DNA of 64,000 bases. Origin: Candidatus Sumerlaea chitinivorans. GTDB taxonomy: Bacteria > Sumerlaeota > Sumerlaeia > Sumerlaeales > Sumerlaeaceae. This document shows, piece after piece, positions 12,392 to 37,288 of this stretch. Both the position numbers and the translations under genes were made by a program. The DNA lies in contig CP030759.1 of assembly GCA_003290465.1 (NCBI GenBank), forward strand, positions 1,455,144 to 1,519,143. Direction: 5' to 3'. Below the pieces are notes generated by a model. The model ran no database searches. It was not told the DNA's origin and saw nothing but the letters and a program-made list of their open reading frames with translations. Within the stretch, counting starts at the first letter, position 1. Each line of letters begins with the position of its first letter.

Positions 12392-13507
12392 TTACTCGAA
12401 AAGACTCCAATCCGACGCTGCTGCTGAGACGGTGCGCGGAAATAGCGGCGACGAAATGTAAGCTTCATTAGAAACCGCCCCATCGGAGGCGCGACGAATG
12501 CTCACAACGTAAATGCTCTTACTGACCGGCGAATAGACGGCGGCATGGTAACGTACGCCGTCCGGCAGTTGGGCATCAGAAGATTGCCAGGCCCCGAGGG
12601 CACCACCACTTAATTGAGCGCGCCACACGTTGTTCTGTGGCGTTCCGCCTGACGCACGGCCACCAAGCACGAAAACTGTGTCTTCGACAGCAATCATTGC
12701 AACACCGTAACGGCCAGCGGGAAGTGCAGCGGCGGTCTGCTCGACCCACGAGCCCATGGTCCCGTCGTTGTTGACTTGCGCCAGATAAACATTCGTGGTG
12801 ACCGAGGTGTTCACGCCCTTAGTCAACAGACCGCGGTGGAGAACGATGTAGTTGCCTACAGCCGCGTTGGCCGAGAAGTAGCACGCAGAGGGAAGCGTCG
12901 TCCCGGTACTAAACGCACCCAAGCCACCATTCGCGGAGACGGGCGCATATACACAAACGTCGTACAAAGGCGGTGTGCCGGATTCGCTGTCACCCGCCAT
13001 TGCATAGAGGTATCCGTTCGACGCGATCACCGCAGAACCGAGCTCCGGGTCGTAGCCCCCCGGGAGGGCTGGGCTCTGCGACCAAGACCCGGCTGTGAAG
13101 TTACCATTCGCATCCACCCCGATAGAGCAGACATTGTTGCGGTTGGGGCCTGTGAGGTTATAACCACCACCGACCACGTAAATCCCGCTGGCTGTGGCTT
13201 CCACTTGCTCGCTGATATAGGCAAAGTTGTTCATCGCTGGCAAAGTGGTCATGGCGGTGCAGTCGCTTAGCGCACCTGTAGCCGCGTCAATTTTGAGCCT
13301 CCAAACACGACCAGTGTCGCCATCCACACTGTTGTTCCCGCCAAGGATGTAGAGGTAATCCCCTACCACGGCTGCACCAGCCATTTGCGTGGCATATCCC
13401 GGAATAATATTCGATTGCGTTACCCAATAGGCAATCGTGTTGGGTGACTCTGCAGAACAAAACGCGACGGCCCCGAACAAAGCCGCAACGATAGCTAACC
13501 TTTTCAT
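12392..13507 (-). CDS. Secreted kelch-like beta-propeller protein
   Basis: 371 residues with a clear signal peptide (MKRLAIVAALFGAVAFCSAES). The ATG at 13507 is preferred over a GTG three codons upstream because a GAGGTG ribosome site lies six bases before it. The mature protein is made of repeated kelch-type blades with G-G and Y-V-V/Y-I-L-G-G motifs (DYLYILGGNN, GIYVVGGGYN, TVFVLGGRAS), so a beta-propeller is likely. Such secreted propellers bind proteins or sugars or have oxidase activity; the role here is unknown. The chain ends in SDWSLFE, close to the end of the B12-controlled surface protein (EDWMLYE). It is a single-gene unit with its own terminator and is divergent from the O-antigen ligase gene. 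Confidence 0.75.
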   Translation of the reverse strand: MKRLAIVAALFGAVAFCSAESPNTIAYWVTQSNIIPGYATQMAGAAVVGDYLYILGGNNSVDGDTGRVWRLKIDAATGALSDCTAMTTLPAMNNFAYISEQVEATASGIYVVGGGYNLTGPNRNNVCSIGVDANGNFTAGSWSQSPALPGGYDPELGSAVIASNGYLYAMAGDSESGTPPLYDVCVYAPVSANGGLGAFSTGTTLPSACYFSANAAVGNYIVLHRGLLTKGVNTSVTTNVYLAQVNNDGTMGSWVEQTAAALPAGRYGVAMIAVEDTVFVLGGRASGGTPQNNVWRAQLSGGALGAWQSSDAQLPDGVRYHAAVYSPVSKSIYVVSIRRASDGAVSNEAYISSPLFPRTVSAAASDWSLFE

Positions 13508-13793
13508 GATTGGCACCTCGTTTCTCGGTCAAAAACGTTCGTTGAAATACAAAACGGAAGTTTCCTTTGGTTGGGAAAGGTGGCAGTTCTCGCAGTTTAG
13601 AGAAGACGATTCGCCCCCTTTGGTTTTCTTGTTTGTATCGAGTTTCACAAATCGTTCTTTATTGAGCAAGCAGAAAGTTTCGTTTTCAGACAAACACTCT
13701 TTGGCAACTTCTCGGGCAATTTGGTTATGTGTGTTCTAAGGACATCGTGCATCCAGAACATCCTTGCAGGGGCACTCTCTCCGTGGGAAGGGT

Positions 13794-33192: not shown

Positions 33193-33470
33193 GGCACTCT
33201 CCTTCTTCGACGCAAAGGCTCTCGTGTATTTACTTACCGCTGCACAGGCTCCGGATTTTGATTCGAGTATGCAAGGAAAAGCCGTAGCCCCCAAAAGCCG
33301 CTTCTTCGGTGGGAGTAGCGTTTTTGACAGCTCTTTGCTTCCCGCGGGTCTCATCTGGATCCTCGCATGTGCTTCTACTGGTTGCTCCGGCAACGTTGTT
33401 GTACCGCTTGAGGAACCACCTGCACGAAACTCGCGATGAATCGCTGGCCCATGCAAGCGGTATAAGTGCG
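33193..33470. other. Intergenic region before the cobalamin riboswitch
   Basis: These 278 bases separate the SH3-like gene start from the riboswitch and must hold both divergent promoters. A TTGACA at about 33325-33330 on the plus strand is the only -35-like element that stands out; no matching -10 is clear. Confidence 0.35.
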
Positions 33471-33710
33471 CGTAGGTTTCCGACGGCGTGTAGGGAGCTG
33501 AAGTCTGTCGTACTGGCGAGCTCCCTGCGGAAGAGGGTGCAATTCCCTCACGGGCACGCCGCTGTGATCAGGGACGAAATCCGCAGTGAGGCGGGCAACG
33601 CATTCTTTCCATCGAGTGCTTGCCTGTCCCACGAAAAGCCACTGGCGCGCAAGCGCTGGGAAGGCGCGGAGAGTAGGATGATCTGTCAGTCAGAAGACGG
33701 CGCTGTCGGA
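33471..33710 (+). ncRNA. Cobalamin (B12) riboswitch
   Basis: The conserved core elements occur in the right order: GGTTTCCGAC at the 5' side, GGAAGAGGGTGCAATTCCC, then GCCGCTGTGA, later GCCACTG, GCTGGGAAGGC, and the 3' box AGTCAGAAGAC. The ends close with TCCGAC (33479-33484) against GTCGGA (33705-33710), which fits helix P1. This is the aptamer class that binds adenosyl- or methylcobalamin. It lies 47 bases before the ATG of the secreted protein, followed by a hairpin that can hide the ribosome site, so B12 should switch translation of the downstream operon off. Confidence 0.92.
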
Positions 33711-33712
33711 CT

Positions 33713-33751
33713 CCTCCAAGAATAGCTTCTTCGCTGAGAGAGAAGTGGAGG
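33713..33751 (+). promoter_or_regulatory. Shine-Dalgarno-masking hairpin (riboswitch expression platform)
   Basis: CCTCCA (33713-33718) pairs perfectly with TGGAGG (33746-33751), which is the ribosome site seven bases before the ATG at 33758. An inner stem CTTCT/AGAAG (33726-33730/33741-33745) supports the same hairpin. It starts three bases after the aptamer, and there is no T-tract, so translational rather than transcriptional control is indicated. Confidence 0.75.
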
Positions 33752-33757
33752 AATCAA

Positions 33758-34567
33758 ATGGACAAATGTGGAGCTTTCCCGCCTCTTTCCCCCCGCAGAT
33801 TCGCCGCAACAACCACGCCAAGGATCCTGGCTGTTGTCCTTGCGCTGCTCTTTGCCATAAATCGTTCTTTTGCCCAAAGCTTTCCGGACCGCGTGACGAC
33901 GTTCACCGCTGGGCTTAATGCGGGTTTCGGCGCGCCCTACTTCCCTACAAACGTCTTAGGGCCACCAAACGGAAGTCTCAACTCTGAGCAACCCAATGCC
34001 TCGGAGAGCGACCTGCTCTCATTAGGCATCGGCGGCTCAATTGTTTTGGAGTTTGTTTCTTCGATTGTCGTGGACGGACCGGGGCCCGATCTAACGGTCT
34101 TTGAGAATCCGTTTCAACCAATTGGCTATCCAGGATTTGTTTTCTGCGAGACGGCGACGGTTGCGGTCAGCCAAAACGGAAGCAATTGGGTTACATTCCC
34201 CTTTAATTTTCACGATCCGGCCACCACAGCGGGCCTCTACTCACCGTCTTGCTACGAGGGCTTAGCTGGCGTTCACCCCGTGTTCAGTTCGCCCAGCAAC
34301 GGGATTTCGCCCTTTGATCCCAATGTGAGCGGAGGGGATTCTTTCGATCTTGCGACCGTGGGATTGCCATGGGTGCGTTTCGTCAAAGTCACAGACACTG
34401 GCACGACAGGTGTGGCTGAGACGGTTGCTCCGAGCGGTGCGATCGTGAATGATCCGGGCAACGCCATGAACGCCGCTCCCACCGCGGGTTTTGACCTTGA
34501 TGCCATCGCCGCCCTTCACTCTTTGCCTGCGACAGCGGTTCGGGAAGACTGGATGCTCTATGAATGA
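33758..34567 (+). CDS. B12-regulated secreted/cell-surface protein
   Basis: 269 residues. A signal segment lies at about 22-42, ending near S-F-A-Q. The mature part has motifs S-L-G-I-G-G-S-I-V-L-E-F and G-P-G-P-D-L-T-V-F-E-N-P-F, then a beta-rich region with four cysteines or fewer; this pattern is known to me from 'cell surface proteins' found near B12 uptake genes in other diderm bacteria. It should be exported and, given the riboswitch upstream, made when B12 is scarce, so binding or capture of corrinoid at the surface is a reasonable guess. The chain ends in EDWMLYE, like the kelch protein. The stop overlaps the pseudopilin start by eight bases. Confidence 0.75.
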   Translation: MDKCGAFPPLSPRRFAATTTPRILAVVLALLFAINRSFAQSFPDRVTTFTAGLNAGFGAPYFPTNVLGPPNGSLNSEQPNASESDLLSLGIGGSIVLEFVSSIVVDGPGPDLTVFENPFQPIGYPGFVFCETATVAVSQNGSNWVTFPFNFHDPATTAGLYSPSCYEGLAGVHPVFSSPSNGISPFDPNVSGGDSFDLATVGLPWVRFVKVTDTGTTGVAETVAPSGAIVNDPGNAMNAAPTAGFDLDAIAALHSLPATAVREDWMLYE

Positions 34568-35210
34568 GCCGCGCTTCCACGGTTTCACGTTGGTTGAGCT
34601 TGTGATCGTTGTCGCGATCCTTGCAATCCTCACGCTTGTGGCCTTACCCAATTTTCTCTTGGCCAAGCAGCGGGCACTCCAAGCCCGTTGTGCGGGAAAC
34701 CTTAAGGCAATCGCGTATGCGCTCTACGCCTATCGTTTGGATCTGAACCACTACCCTCTGGCGGACGGCACAGCCGGGACTATGGAAAGTATGGGGCAAA
34801 CGGAGGTTGGCAACGGACCAGCAGCCAACGGCAGTTGGGACGGTGTGCCCCGCGTTCTCCTGCGACTTGGCTACCTTACGAGCGAGGAAATCCTTTTCTG
34901 CCCGGTCTACCGGCAACAGTTCAAAGGCGAGCGGCTCCAACGGTTTCGCTATGCCTACAATAACTCAGCTGCGGACACGGGCGGAGTCATTGGTGGCGCA
35001 AATAATGTGGAGCGGGATTCTCACGACATCTGGTTCGCTCGGTGCTTGTGGGTGCCGCCAGAATATAGTTTCACGCCACAGGCAACAGACGTAAAATTCC
35101 CCCACGGCGAAAACTTCGACCGCGAAAACGCACTCATGTCTAATGGCCGAGTGGAGTTACGCGACGGCCGAGCTGATTTTCGTGCGGCGTACTCGATTCC
35201 CGCTCCATGA
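34560..35210 (+). CDS. Type IV pilin-like/pseudopilin (GspG-like) protein
   Basis: 216 residues. The prepilin signal is short and standard: G8 before F9-T-L-V-E13, followed by the hydrophobic helix VIVVAILAILTLVALPNF, so it is a substrate of a prepilin peptidase. The C-terminal domain has Y-P-L-A-D-G and cysteines at LFCP and ARCLW. The ATG at 34560 overlaps the end of the surface-protein gene (ATGAATGA), so both are translated together under the B12 riboswitch. It may be a minor pseudopilin of a type II-like secretion or uptake machine; the rest of that machine is not in this window. Confidence 0.8.
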   Translation: MNEPRFHGFTLVELVIVVAILAILTLVALPNFLLAKQRALQARCAGNLKAIAYALYAYRLDLNHYPLADGTAGTMESMGQTEVGNGPAANGSWDGVPRVLLRLGYLTSEEILFCPVYRQQFKGERLQRFRYAYNNSAADTGGVIGGANNVERDSHDIWFARCLWVPPEYSFTPQATDVKFPHGENFDRENALMSNGRVELRDGRADFRAAYSIPAP

Positions 35211-35270: not shown

Positions 35271-36068
35271 ATGAAGCAAACAAGCAAAACTCCGTCCATT
35301 CGTGCGATCCTTGATCGTGTCGCAAAAGGTGAACTTAAAGTCCCCCAAGCGGAGAAGTTACTGAGGGAAATTAGTGTCGAGGGCTATGCTGAACTCCTAC
35401 ACACGAAAGTGGATCTGCATCGCCGCCACCGACGCGGGGTAGCCGAGGCCGTGTATTGCGCCAACAAAACGGCGGACCAAATAGTAGCCATCGTGAGAAA
35501 AATTGAAGAATCTGGACAAAATGTTTTGTGCACACGCGTGCCTGAAACAACGGCGAAAGCGGTACTCGAGCAATGCCCAGACCTAAAGTACTCGCCTGTT
35601 GCGCGTATGCTTTACAAGCAGGTGGAACGGCGCACCGCTCGCCCCCAAGGTCTCATTGCGGTGCTCACGGCTGGCACCTCGGACATCCCTGTCGCGGAGG
35701 AAGCGGCGTTGAGCGCCGAACTTATGGGGAACCGCGTCGTACGTCTCCACGACGTGGGAGTAGCAGGACTTCATCGGCTTCTTCAGAGTGGCACCGATCT
35801 GCTCCTGCGGGCACGAGTCATAATCGTTGTCGCGGGCATGGAAGGGGCGCTGCCGAGCGTGGTTGCAGGCCTCACCGCTGCGCCCGTCATCGCCGTCCCC
35901 ACCAGTGTGGGCTATGGCGCTGCCTTCGGAGGAGTTGCGGCCCTCCTCGGAATGCTGAATTCTTGTAGCGGTGGAGTCGCCGTCGTGAACATTGATAACG
36001 GGTTCGGGGCAGCCCTCATCGCACATCTCATCAATCAACGCCATACGGAAAGAAAAGGAGCACGGTAG
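35271..36068 (+). CDS. larB: Pyridinium-3,5-biscarboxylic acid mononucleotide synthase
   Basis: 265 residues, the usual LarB length. The C-terminal half is PurE-like (VLTAGTSDIPVAEEAA, then VVAGMEGALPSVVAGL), and the active-site cysteine is Cys232 in MLNSCSGGVAVVNIDNGFGA. LarB carboxylates and cuts nicotinic acid adenine dinucleotide in the first step to the nickel-pincer cofactor of lactate racemase and related racemases or epimerases. It is followed five bases later by larC. LarE and LarA are not in the window. It starts 60 bases after the pseudopilin gene, so read-through from the B12-controlled operon is possible. Confidence 0.9.
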   Translation: MKQTSKTPSIRAILDRVAKGELKVPQAEKLLREISVEGYAELLHTKVDLHRRHRRGVAEAVYCANKTADQIVAIVRKIEESGQNVLCTRVPETTAKAVLEQCPDLKYSPVARMLYKQVERRTARPQGLIAVLTAGTSDIPVAEEAALSAELMGNRVVRLHDVGVAGLHRLLQSGTDLLLRARVIIVVAGMEGALPSVVAGLTAAPVIAVPTSVGYGAAFGGVAALLGMLNSCSGGVAVVNIDNGFGAALIAHLINQRHTERKGAR

Positions 36069-36073
36069 CGAAA

Positions 36074-37288
36074 TTGCGGACGGCTTTCTTTGACTGCTAT
36101 AACGGCGTGAGTGGCGACATGACACTCGGCGCACTCATTGATCTGGGGGTTCCCATTGCAGAGCTCCAAGAGATGGTCCGAACGCTTGGGCTCTCAGAAG
36201 TAACGGTGTCGGCAGAAACTGTTCAGCGATGCGGGGTGGCAGCAACACAGGTCCATGTCCACTTTCCTCATCAGCATGTCCATCGGCGTTTTTCGGATAT
36301 TCGGAGCCTGATCGAAAAAAGTCCGCTTTCCGATCGCGTAAAGTCTCAAGCAATTGCGTGTTTTCGCCGGCTTGCTGAGGCAGAGGCGCGCGTTCACCGC
36401 ACGACGATCGAAGAAGTACACTTCCACGAGGTCGGAGCGCTCGACGCGATCGTGGACATTGTAGGAAGTGTTTGGGCGCTCGAGCGCTTGGGCGTCGAGC
36501 AGGTCCTTGCCTCCGAGATTGTGACGGGATACGGCACCGTTCAGGCTGCACACGGAGAGTTGCCAGTTCCTGCGCCCGCGACAGCGTATTTGCTGGAAGG
36601 CGTGCCCGTACGCACAGGCCCTTATCCTCAAGAAATGACCACACCTACTGGCGCTGCAATTGTCACAACGTTAGCAAGAGAATTTGGTCCACTGGGAACG
36701 TTCCGAGTGGAACGAGTCGGATACGGCGCTGGATCGCGTCTGATCAGTGGGCGCACGAACTACTTACGTTTATTCTTGGGGGAAGACGTGGCGCCGGTCC
36801 TAAGCTTGGAGCGCCGGGAACTGCTAATCCTCCAGACAGAGATTGATGACATGCCGGGCGAAATGTTTGGCTTCCTTCAGGAGCGTTTGTTAGCAGCGGG
36901 CGCACTCGATGTCACCTTCGTGCCCATTCAAATGAAGAAGAATCGGCCGGCGGTCAGTGTTCAAGTCCTCACGGCGCCCGAACAGTTGAGCCCCTTGCTT
37001 GAAATCGTGTTGCGGGAAAGCACAACGTTCGGGGTAAAAGTTCTGCGGTGCGATCGTTTCTGCTTGCCGCGAGAGATTCACGAGGTGTCCACTCGTTTCG
37101 GCCCCATCCGTGTAAAAGTGGGCAAGTTAGGTGATAGAGTGGTTAAGGCAACCCCCGAATACGAGGATTGCCGACGCCTTGCCCTTGAACATGGAGTGGC
37201 CCTGCCGGAGATCTTCAAGATCGCAGACCAAAGCATTCAACAATGGCTCGAGCAGGAGTGGGCCAAGAACATTAGCGACACAGAATAG
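36074..37288 (+). CDS. larC: Nickel-pincer cofactor nickel insertase LarC
   Basis: 404 residues in one frame. The N-terminal half opens FFDCYNGVSGDMTLGALIDLG and holds the H-F-H-E-V-G-A-L-D-A-I-V-D-I-V-G motif plus a His-rich stretch (HVHFPHQHVHRRF), possibly for nickel. The C-terminal half begins E-I-D-D-M-P-G-E. LarC puts nickel into the dithiolated pincer nucleotide using CTP. In lactobacilli the protein is made by a frameshift between two frames; here it is continuous. The start is a TTG five bases after the larB stop, with AAGGAG twelve bases before it. Confidence 0.9.
   Translation: MRTAFFDCYNGVSGDMTLGALIDLGVPIAELQEMVRTLGLSEVTVSAETVQRCGVAATQVHVHFPHQHVHRRFSDIRSLIEKSPLSDRVKSQAIACFRRLAEAEARVHRTTIEEVHFHEVGALDAIVDIVGSVWALERLGVEQVLASEIVTGYGTVQAAHGELPVPAPATAYLLEGVPVRTGPYPQEMTTPTGAAIVTTLAREFGPLGTFRVERVGYGAGSRLISGRTNYLRLFLGEDVAPVLSLERRELLILQTEIDDMPGEMFGFLQERLLAAGALDVTFVPIQMKKNRPAVSVQVLTAPEQLSPLLEIVLRESTTFGVKVLRCDRFCLPREIHEVSTRFGPIRVKVGKLGDRVVKATPEYEDCRRLALEHGVALPEIFKIADQSIQQWLEQEWAKNISDTE

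Follow-up and report, generated by a model that had tools for sequence, protein, structure and literature searches.

Cobamides are too large for porins, and all characterised Gram-negative B12 systems, to our knowledge, cross the outer membrane via a TonB-dependent receptor. Among the closest described systems are the BtuB-BtuG-BtuH and BtuFCD loci of Bacteroides (PMC10404256, PMC8941943). BtuG1, a surface protein of Bacteroides thetaiotaomicron, contains a BtuH domain in its C-terminal ~250 residues (PMC10404256), and BtuH2 (PDB entry 7BIZ) binds B12 directly and is required for efficient B12 transport (PMC8941943). The locus of Candidatus Sumerlaea chitinivorans described here has in common with the Bacteroides loci riboswitch control, a predicted BtuH-related secreted protein and a co-regulated propeller, and in its relatives the BtuF, FecCD and ABC partners are shared as well. 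Unlike the Bacteroides loci, however, it includes a pseudopilin, and TonB-dependent BtuB is missing from the genome; furthermore, the BtuH-like protein and the propeller are separate, non-lipoprotein and carry a C-terminal tag with a tryptophan (hereinafter W-tag), and the propeller is not recognisably BtuG. The BtuB-TonB/BtuFCD system of E. coli resembles this locus in riboswitch control and, with respect to the relatives, in the BtuFCD-type inner-membrane step, but the plug-domain receptor is absent from this genome and most Sumerlaeota. The BtuJ (DUF4465) lipoproteins are jelly-roll surface cobamide binders that are controlled by riboswitches and have varied C-terminal export signals (PMC12751083); in contrast, the secreted protein of this locus shows no match to any Pfam family, DUF4465 included, and its links go to BtuH. 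With the competence pilus (ComGC/PilA and a secretin) and the type II protein GspG, the likeness consists of a weak prepilin match at the N-terminus and shared secretins, whereas the C-terminal domain of the pseudopilin is a family of its own and its gene is part of a B12 regulon. No published link of pilins to cobalamin riboswitches or B12 uptake was found in the openly accessible literature. The riboswitch, BtuH-like proteins, propellers, pilins and BtuFCD all represent known kinds; their combination without a TonB receptor is not described in the accessible papers.

The window, i.e., the whole stretch of DNA analyzed, consists of 64,000 nucleotides (contig CP030759.1, positions 1,455,144 to 1,519,143) from a genome of 3.29 Mb in one contig, which has a second cobalamin riboswitch outside the window. 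The features of the locus, in window coordinates, are as follows.

33469..33719, plus strand: cobalamin (B12) riboswitch aptamer (RF00174; our own covariance model R1)
33712..33752, plus strand: candidate expression platform (sequence; predicted fold)
33758..34567, plus strand: sec, secreted BtuH-like protein of 269 aa, predicted B12-binding beta-sandwich (AlphaFold2, Foldseek, profile)
34560..35210, plus strand: pil, prepilin/pseudopilin of 216 aa with the cleavage motif G/FTLVE (N_methyl)
35271..36068, plus strand: larB, nickel pincer cofactor synthesis (NCBIfam LarB, E=3.1e-85)
36074..37288, plus strand: larC (NCBIfam LarC1/LarC2)

A preliminary description of this DNA, made from the letters alone, had claimed a cobalamin riboswitch at this locus and named a search with the Rfam cobalamin models as the check. 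This search gives a clear match of the window to RF00174 over the full model (1-189), with 62.8 bits compared with the gathering score of 31.5 (E=3.6e-13), and the R1 model finds the aptamer again at 33524-33701, with 84.6 bits. The spacing between the aptamer and sec is 38 bases. Directly 3' of the aptamer, TCCTCC (33712-33717) is complementary to the Shine-Dalgarno sequence GGAGGA (33747-33752), which is located 5 nt ahead of the sec ATG. This pairing is present in the predicted fold (fold energy z -0.74, not significant) and could mask the ribosome site, which is consistent with translational control. The ATG of pil is at 34560 and the stop codon of sec is at 34565-34567, so that the secreted protein and the pilin-like protein are encoded by genes that overlap by exactly 8 bases, as originally described. 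The larB gene begins 60 bp after pil, and read-through from the B12 riboswitch may place larB and larC on the same transcript. Outside the window genome, these two genes are found beside pil only in G001 and G007, close relatives with the same order; given this limited distribution, the Lar genes were rejected as a part of the B12 device and probably lie outside it.

The sec protein starts with a basic/hydrophobic segment ending in A-Q, which was taken by eye as a signal peptide, and ends with the tag DWMLYE, which is disordered in the AlphaFold2 model (pLDDT 49 vs 85.4 for the model of sec). A Foldseek search started with this model identifies BtuG1 (8blw_B) as the top match, with E=3e-5 and the probability of 1.00 (TM-score 0.40 (query length)/0.19, 14% identity), followed by CBM32-type beta-sandwiches. 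A 46-member sec profile (A7) run against all PDB sequences detects residues 394-498 of BtuG1 (8blw_B, E=1.4e-4) and BtuH2 (7biz, E=0.34), and no other PDB match with E up to 10. The aligned part of BtuG1 falls in the C-terminal H-domain region. The B12 contacts of BtuH2 are Tyr510, Trp511, Trp577 and His476. With a narrow 16-member profile, the similarity to BtuH2 reaches only E=0.07, and a profile built from Bacteroidota alone matches nothing except type IX secretion tails. Given the profile and fold matches to BtuG1 and BtuH2, sec is, as judged by remote similarity, a BtuH-type protein, and the alternative that it is an unclassified secreted protein was rejected on the same matches; we infer that it binds B12 and is located at the surface.

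Analysis of the sec family in named genomes across phyla reveals that 54 of the 80 sec loci are preceded by a same-strand cobalamin riboswitch (within 2.6 kb in 50). In Myxococcota, KSB1, WOR-3, Bacteroidota and Methyloversatilis, a TonB receptor is a common neighbor of sec, and BtuF, BtuC or BtuD are occasional ones; this btuB-type association, which is seen in other phyla, is absent from the window genome, where plug-domain receptors number zero. The C-termini carry type IX tails in 7 of the 8 Bacteroidota members scanned, PEP-CTERM-like ends (recognized by eye) in Methyloversatilis and a D/N-W-x-x-Y tag in Sumerlaeota. The family shows that BtuH-like proteins extend well beyond gut Bacteroidetes. 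The nearest named relatives of the window sec are from Sumerlaeota; no homologues were found in viral contigs and plasmids. A sec gene on a contig labelled Bifidobacterium breve (L108) is the same in length and termini as that of an uncultured proteobacterium (L107), and L108 is likely to be a MAG contig that is mislabelled or contaminated.

Within Sumerlaeota, sec lies downstream of a riboswitch in 12 of 15 cases, the window included, and two of the other three operons reach a contig end. Several genera carry a beta-propeller gene after the riboswitch and before sec, which suggests, as far as gene order can tell, that the ancestral arrangement was riboswitch-propeller-sec-pil and that the window genome now has its parts in two separate loci. 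The second riboswitch of this genome precedes a secreted protein of 420 residues with a beta-propeller fold that is structurally closest to SMP-30/Drp35-like lactonases. Its 50 best structural matches include no BtuG and do not support classification of this protein as a BtuG orthologue. In our preferred explanation, it probably captures cobamides, as sec would. In loci L156, L158, L159, L161 and L182, the first gene after the Sumerlaeota riboswitch encodes a secreted propeller of the PQQ_2 or BNR_4 type, mostly W-tagged; these propellers are possibly further corrinoid-binding proteins.

The W-tag, D/N-W-x-L/M-Y/F-E, is found at the C-terminus of many Sumerlaeota secreted proteins with unrelated folds, at the following sites in the window genome.

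34543-34564 of the window: W-tag
12392-13516 of the window, minus strand: W-tag
Contig C1 of the genome (G000), positions 327782, 630922, 2863359, 2909099 and 3233168: W-tags

Six proteins of the window genome end in W-x-L-Y-E (control 0), and 5 of 324 background ORFs end in W-x-x-[YFW]. The W-x-L-Y-E ends occur on varied proteins, so that a B12-specific tag was rejected; the W-tag resembles a signal for export or sorting of a kind not yet described.

The absence of a receptor was assessed in a set of 40 Sumerlaeota genomes, the window genome (G000) and 39 others. When TonB receptors are counted by the plug domain (PF07715, as distinct from the beta-barrel family PF00593; positive controls in E. 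coli, Caulobacter and Bacteroides), there are none in the window genome, and 35 of the 39 other genomes lack them, with four positive. The assembly machinery was judged by the secretin alone (PF00263), which is present in 40/40 genomes, with three copies in the window genome; FecCD is found in 39/40, and Omp85 was detected in the window genome. Together, the secretins, FecCD and Omp85 indicate that Sumerlaeota are diderms with a permease of the BtuC kind in which BtuB is not visible. Most Sumerlaeota apparently lack a TonB receptor, yet possess cobalamin riboswitches and FecCD-type permeases, which raises the question of how B12 is imported.

The pil protein contains a prepilin leader with the G/F cleavage site and Glu5; Pfam N_methyl is detected with E=8.8e-8, which passes the cut-off, and the N-terminus weakly matches the PilA, GspG and ComGC models. 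Residues F9, T10, L11 and E13 are invariant across 13 pil orthologues. A Sumerlaeota genome contains ~11-56 pilin-like matches, among which the pil profile is bimodal: orthologues score 182-362 bits, compared with <=94 bits, at the N-terminus only, for other pilins, and exactly one full-length orthologue is identified in 36 of the 40 genomes. In 28 of these 36 (genomes of ~34 genera), a cobalamin riboswitch precedes pil on its strand, at a distance of 51-3895 nt; by chance, almost none would be expected, and a simple p-value would be too strong because the genomes share descent. The preliminary description had proposed a survey for the gene pair near B12 riboswitches or btu genes. Besides the riboswitch-linked pil and sec genes, BtuF is encoded directly or nearly directly 3' of pil in eight genomes (G003, G013, G021, G026, G029, G031, G032 and G035), mostly joined by BtuD/BtuC if the contig is long enough; pil and BtuF of G013 are separated by a gene for a 615-residue protein. 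Riboswitch-free pairs unrelated to B12 are not the rule: of the eight pil orthologues without a detected riboswitch, two belong to operons in which the contig breaks off, and the one in G003 is followed by BtuF. The pil gene adjoins sec in 12 of 14 Sumerlaeota sec homologues. In G002 and G013 it is under a separate riboswitch, away from sec, which makes pil itself a member of the B12 regulon, independently of sec. In these two genomes, and in G014, G036 and G037, pil directly follows the riboswitch, with no secreted partner in between. Retention of pil as a single-copy family in genomes that nearly all lack TonB receptors, together with the Planctomycetia prepilins described below, supports a dedicated role for the pseudopilin.

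A similar association is observed in Planctomycetia, where cobalamin riboswitches were identified in 55/59 genomes. A prepilin is the first gene in 22 of the 30 best-scoring riboswitch loci with available DNA, and three such proteins examined in related sec loci are of the DUF1559 type. Further downstream, these operons encode small lipoproteins, DUF6580, BtuF or FecCD; one encodes a BluB-like nitroreductase, CobQ, CobO, CobT and CobU. No TonB receptor was found in 20 extended Planctomycetia loci, which had been picked for having a pilin; plug domains are present in 6 of 8 Planctomycetes genomes. In 12 riboswitch loci from other phyla, used as the control, there are no pilins and eight TonB receptors. 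By gene order, the pseudopilin takes the genomic place that BtuB occupies in other phyla, and with the place of the receptor held by a pseudopilin in two phyla, the route of B12 import becomes directly testable. The pilins of Sumerlaeota and Planctomycetes show detectable likeness over the N-terminal ~64 residues alone, so that the association either arose twice or diverged far. It also points to a likely function for one set of the large, unexplained group of DUF1559 planctomycete pilins. In L262, L264, L273 and other loci, the gene 3' of the prepilin encodes a lipoprotein of ~100-130 aa, often with a motif near P-x-T-G-x-x-T-L-x-P-A-x-x-C-x-x-C, followed by a diphthamide-synthase-like ATPase and the DUF6580 membrane protein, and then BtuF.

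From the gene content and order, the locus is well supported as a B12-repressed cobamide-acquisition operon. Our preferred explanation, to which we assign a probability of roughly 0.55, is that it encodes a capture protein and a pseudopilin that acts via the secretin, as one half of a B12-repressed acquisition regulon of Sumerlaeota. Under this scheme, at low B12 the riboswitch would permit synthesis of sec and pil; sec, BtuH-like and secreted, would capture cobamides outside the cell; the pseudopilin would become part of a machine of the type II secretion/type IV pilus kind and form a short pseudopilus; working via the secretin, this pseudopilus would assist passage of the cobamide, or of its carrier, to the periplasm, for BtuF and BtuCD to continue the transport. 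The preliminary description had suggested a new device for capturing or taking up B12 that involves a pilus-like fibre or a secretion machine. The B12 part of this suggestion is strongly borne out by the similarity of sec to BtuH, the riboswitches and the BtuF neighbors; the mechanical role of the pseudopilin at the outer-membrane step, and with it uptake by a fibre, we infer by analogy with competence pili bringing in DNA. The broader proposition, that a B12-repressed pseudopilus and secretin move cobamides, with or without a BtuH-like binder, in Sumerlaeota and many Planctomycetes and so constitute a new vitamin route, is offered tentatively. If true, it would add a small nutrient to the cargo of type IV filaments, beyond their functions in the traffic of DNA and proteins.

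The main rival to the uptake mechanism is export, whereby the pseudopilin is a secretion accessory that adapts a type II machine to export or display B12-binding proteins, and the cobamide enters by a porin or an unknown channel. This is a possibility of some substance rather than a probable reading: the ubiquity of secretins in Sumerlaeota, the overlap of pil and sec, and the C-terminal W-x-x-[YF] tag common to sec, propellers and other secreted proteins, which would suit an export signal, are all compatible with it. However, pil follows the riboswitch without a secreted partner in the five genomes listed above and has BtuF as an immediate or near neighbor in eight, and in Planctomycetia the prepilin gene directly precedes a small lipoprotein and transport/salvage genes; moreover, the tag is not confined to B12 operons, and given that the genome has one pil only, the other tagged secreted proteins have no pil orthologue. 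Alternatively, B12 could be an environmental signal, scarcity of which induces a fibre or adhesin resembling a pilus, used to attach to neighboring B12 producers or particles, with no role in transport. Pilins commonly serve attachment, and the riboswitch linkage of most pil genes would be expected in this case too, but the operon partners are B12 transport/salvage genes and proteins of B12-binding types, and the pilin occupies the position of the TonB receptor, which makes a signaling role improbable. Chance or hitch-hiking, i.e., abundant pilins landing beside B12 genes with no functional link, draws on the large number of pilin-like proteins per genome and is highly improbable, given that a single full-length family alone is riboswitch-linked across so many genera and that Planctomycetia show an independent association (22/30, against 0/12 in the controls).

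Apart from the cobamide systems, sec shows weak similarity, over 110 residues, to the Leptospira family LIC_13355 (NCBIfam NF033170), with 37.9 bits against the cut-off of 120, so that the window protein falls far below the family threshold. LIC_13355 is studied as a putative lipoprotein to which binding activities are ascribed (PMC11891782). The abstracts searched report no B12 role for it in Leptospira. All 46 sec homologues scanned weakly match NF033170, and the Leptospira family may be BtuH-like.
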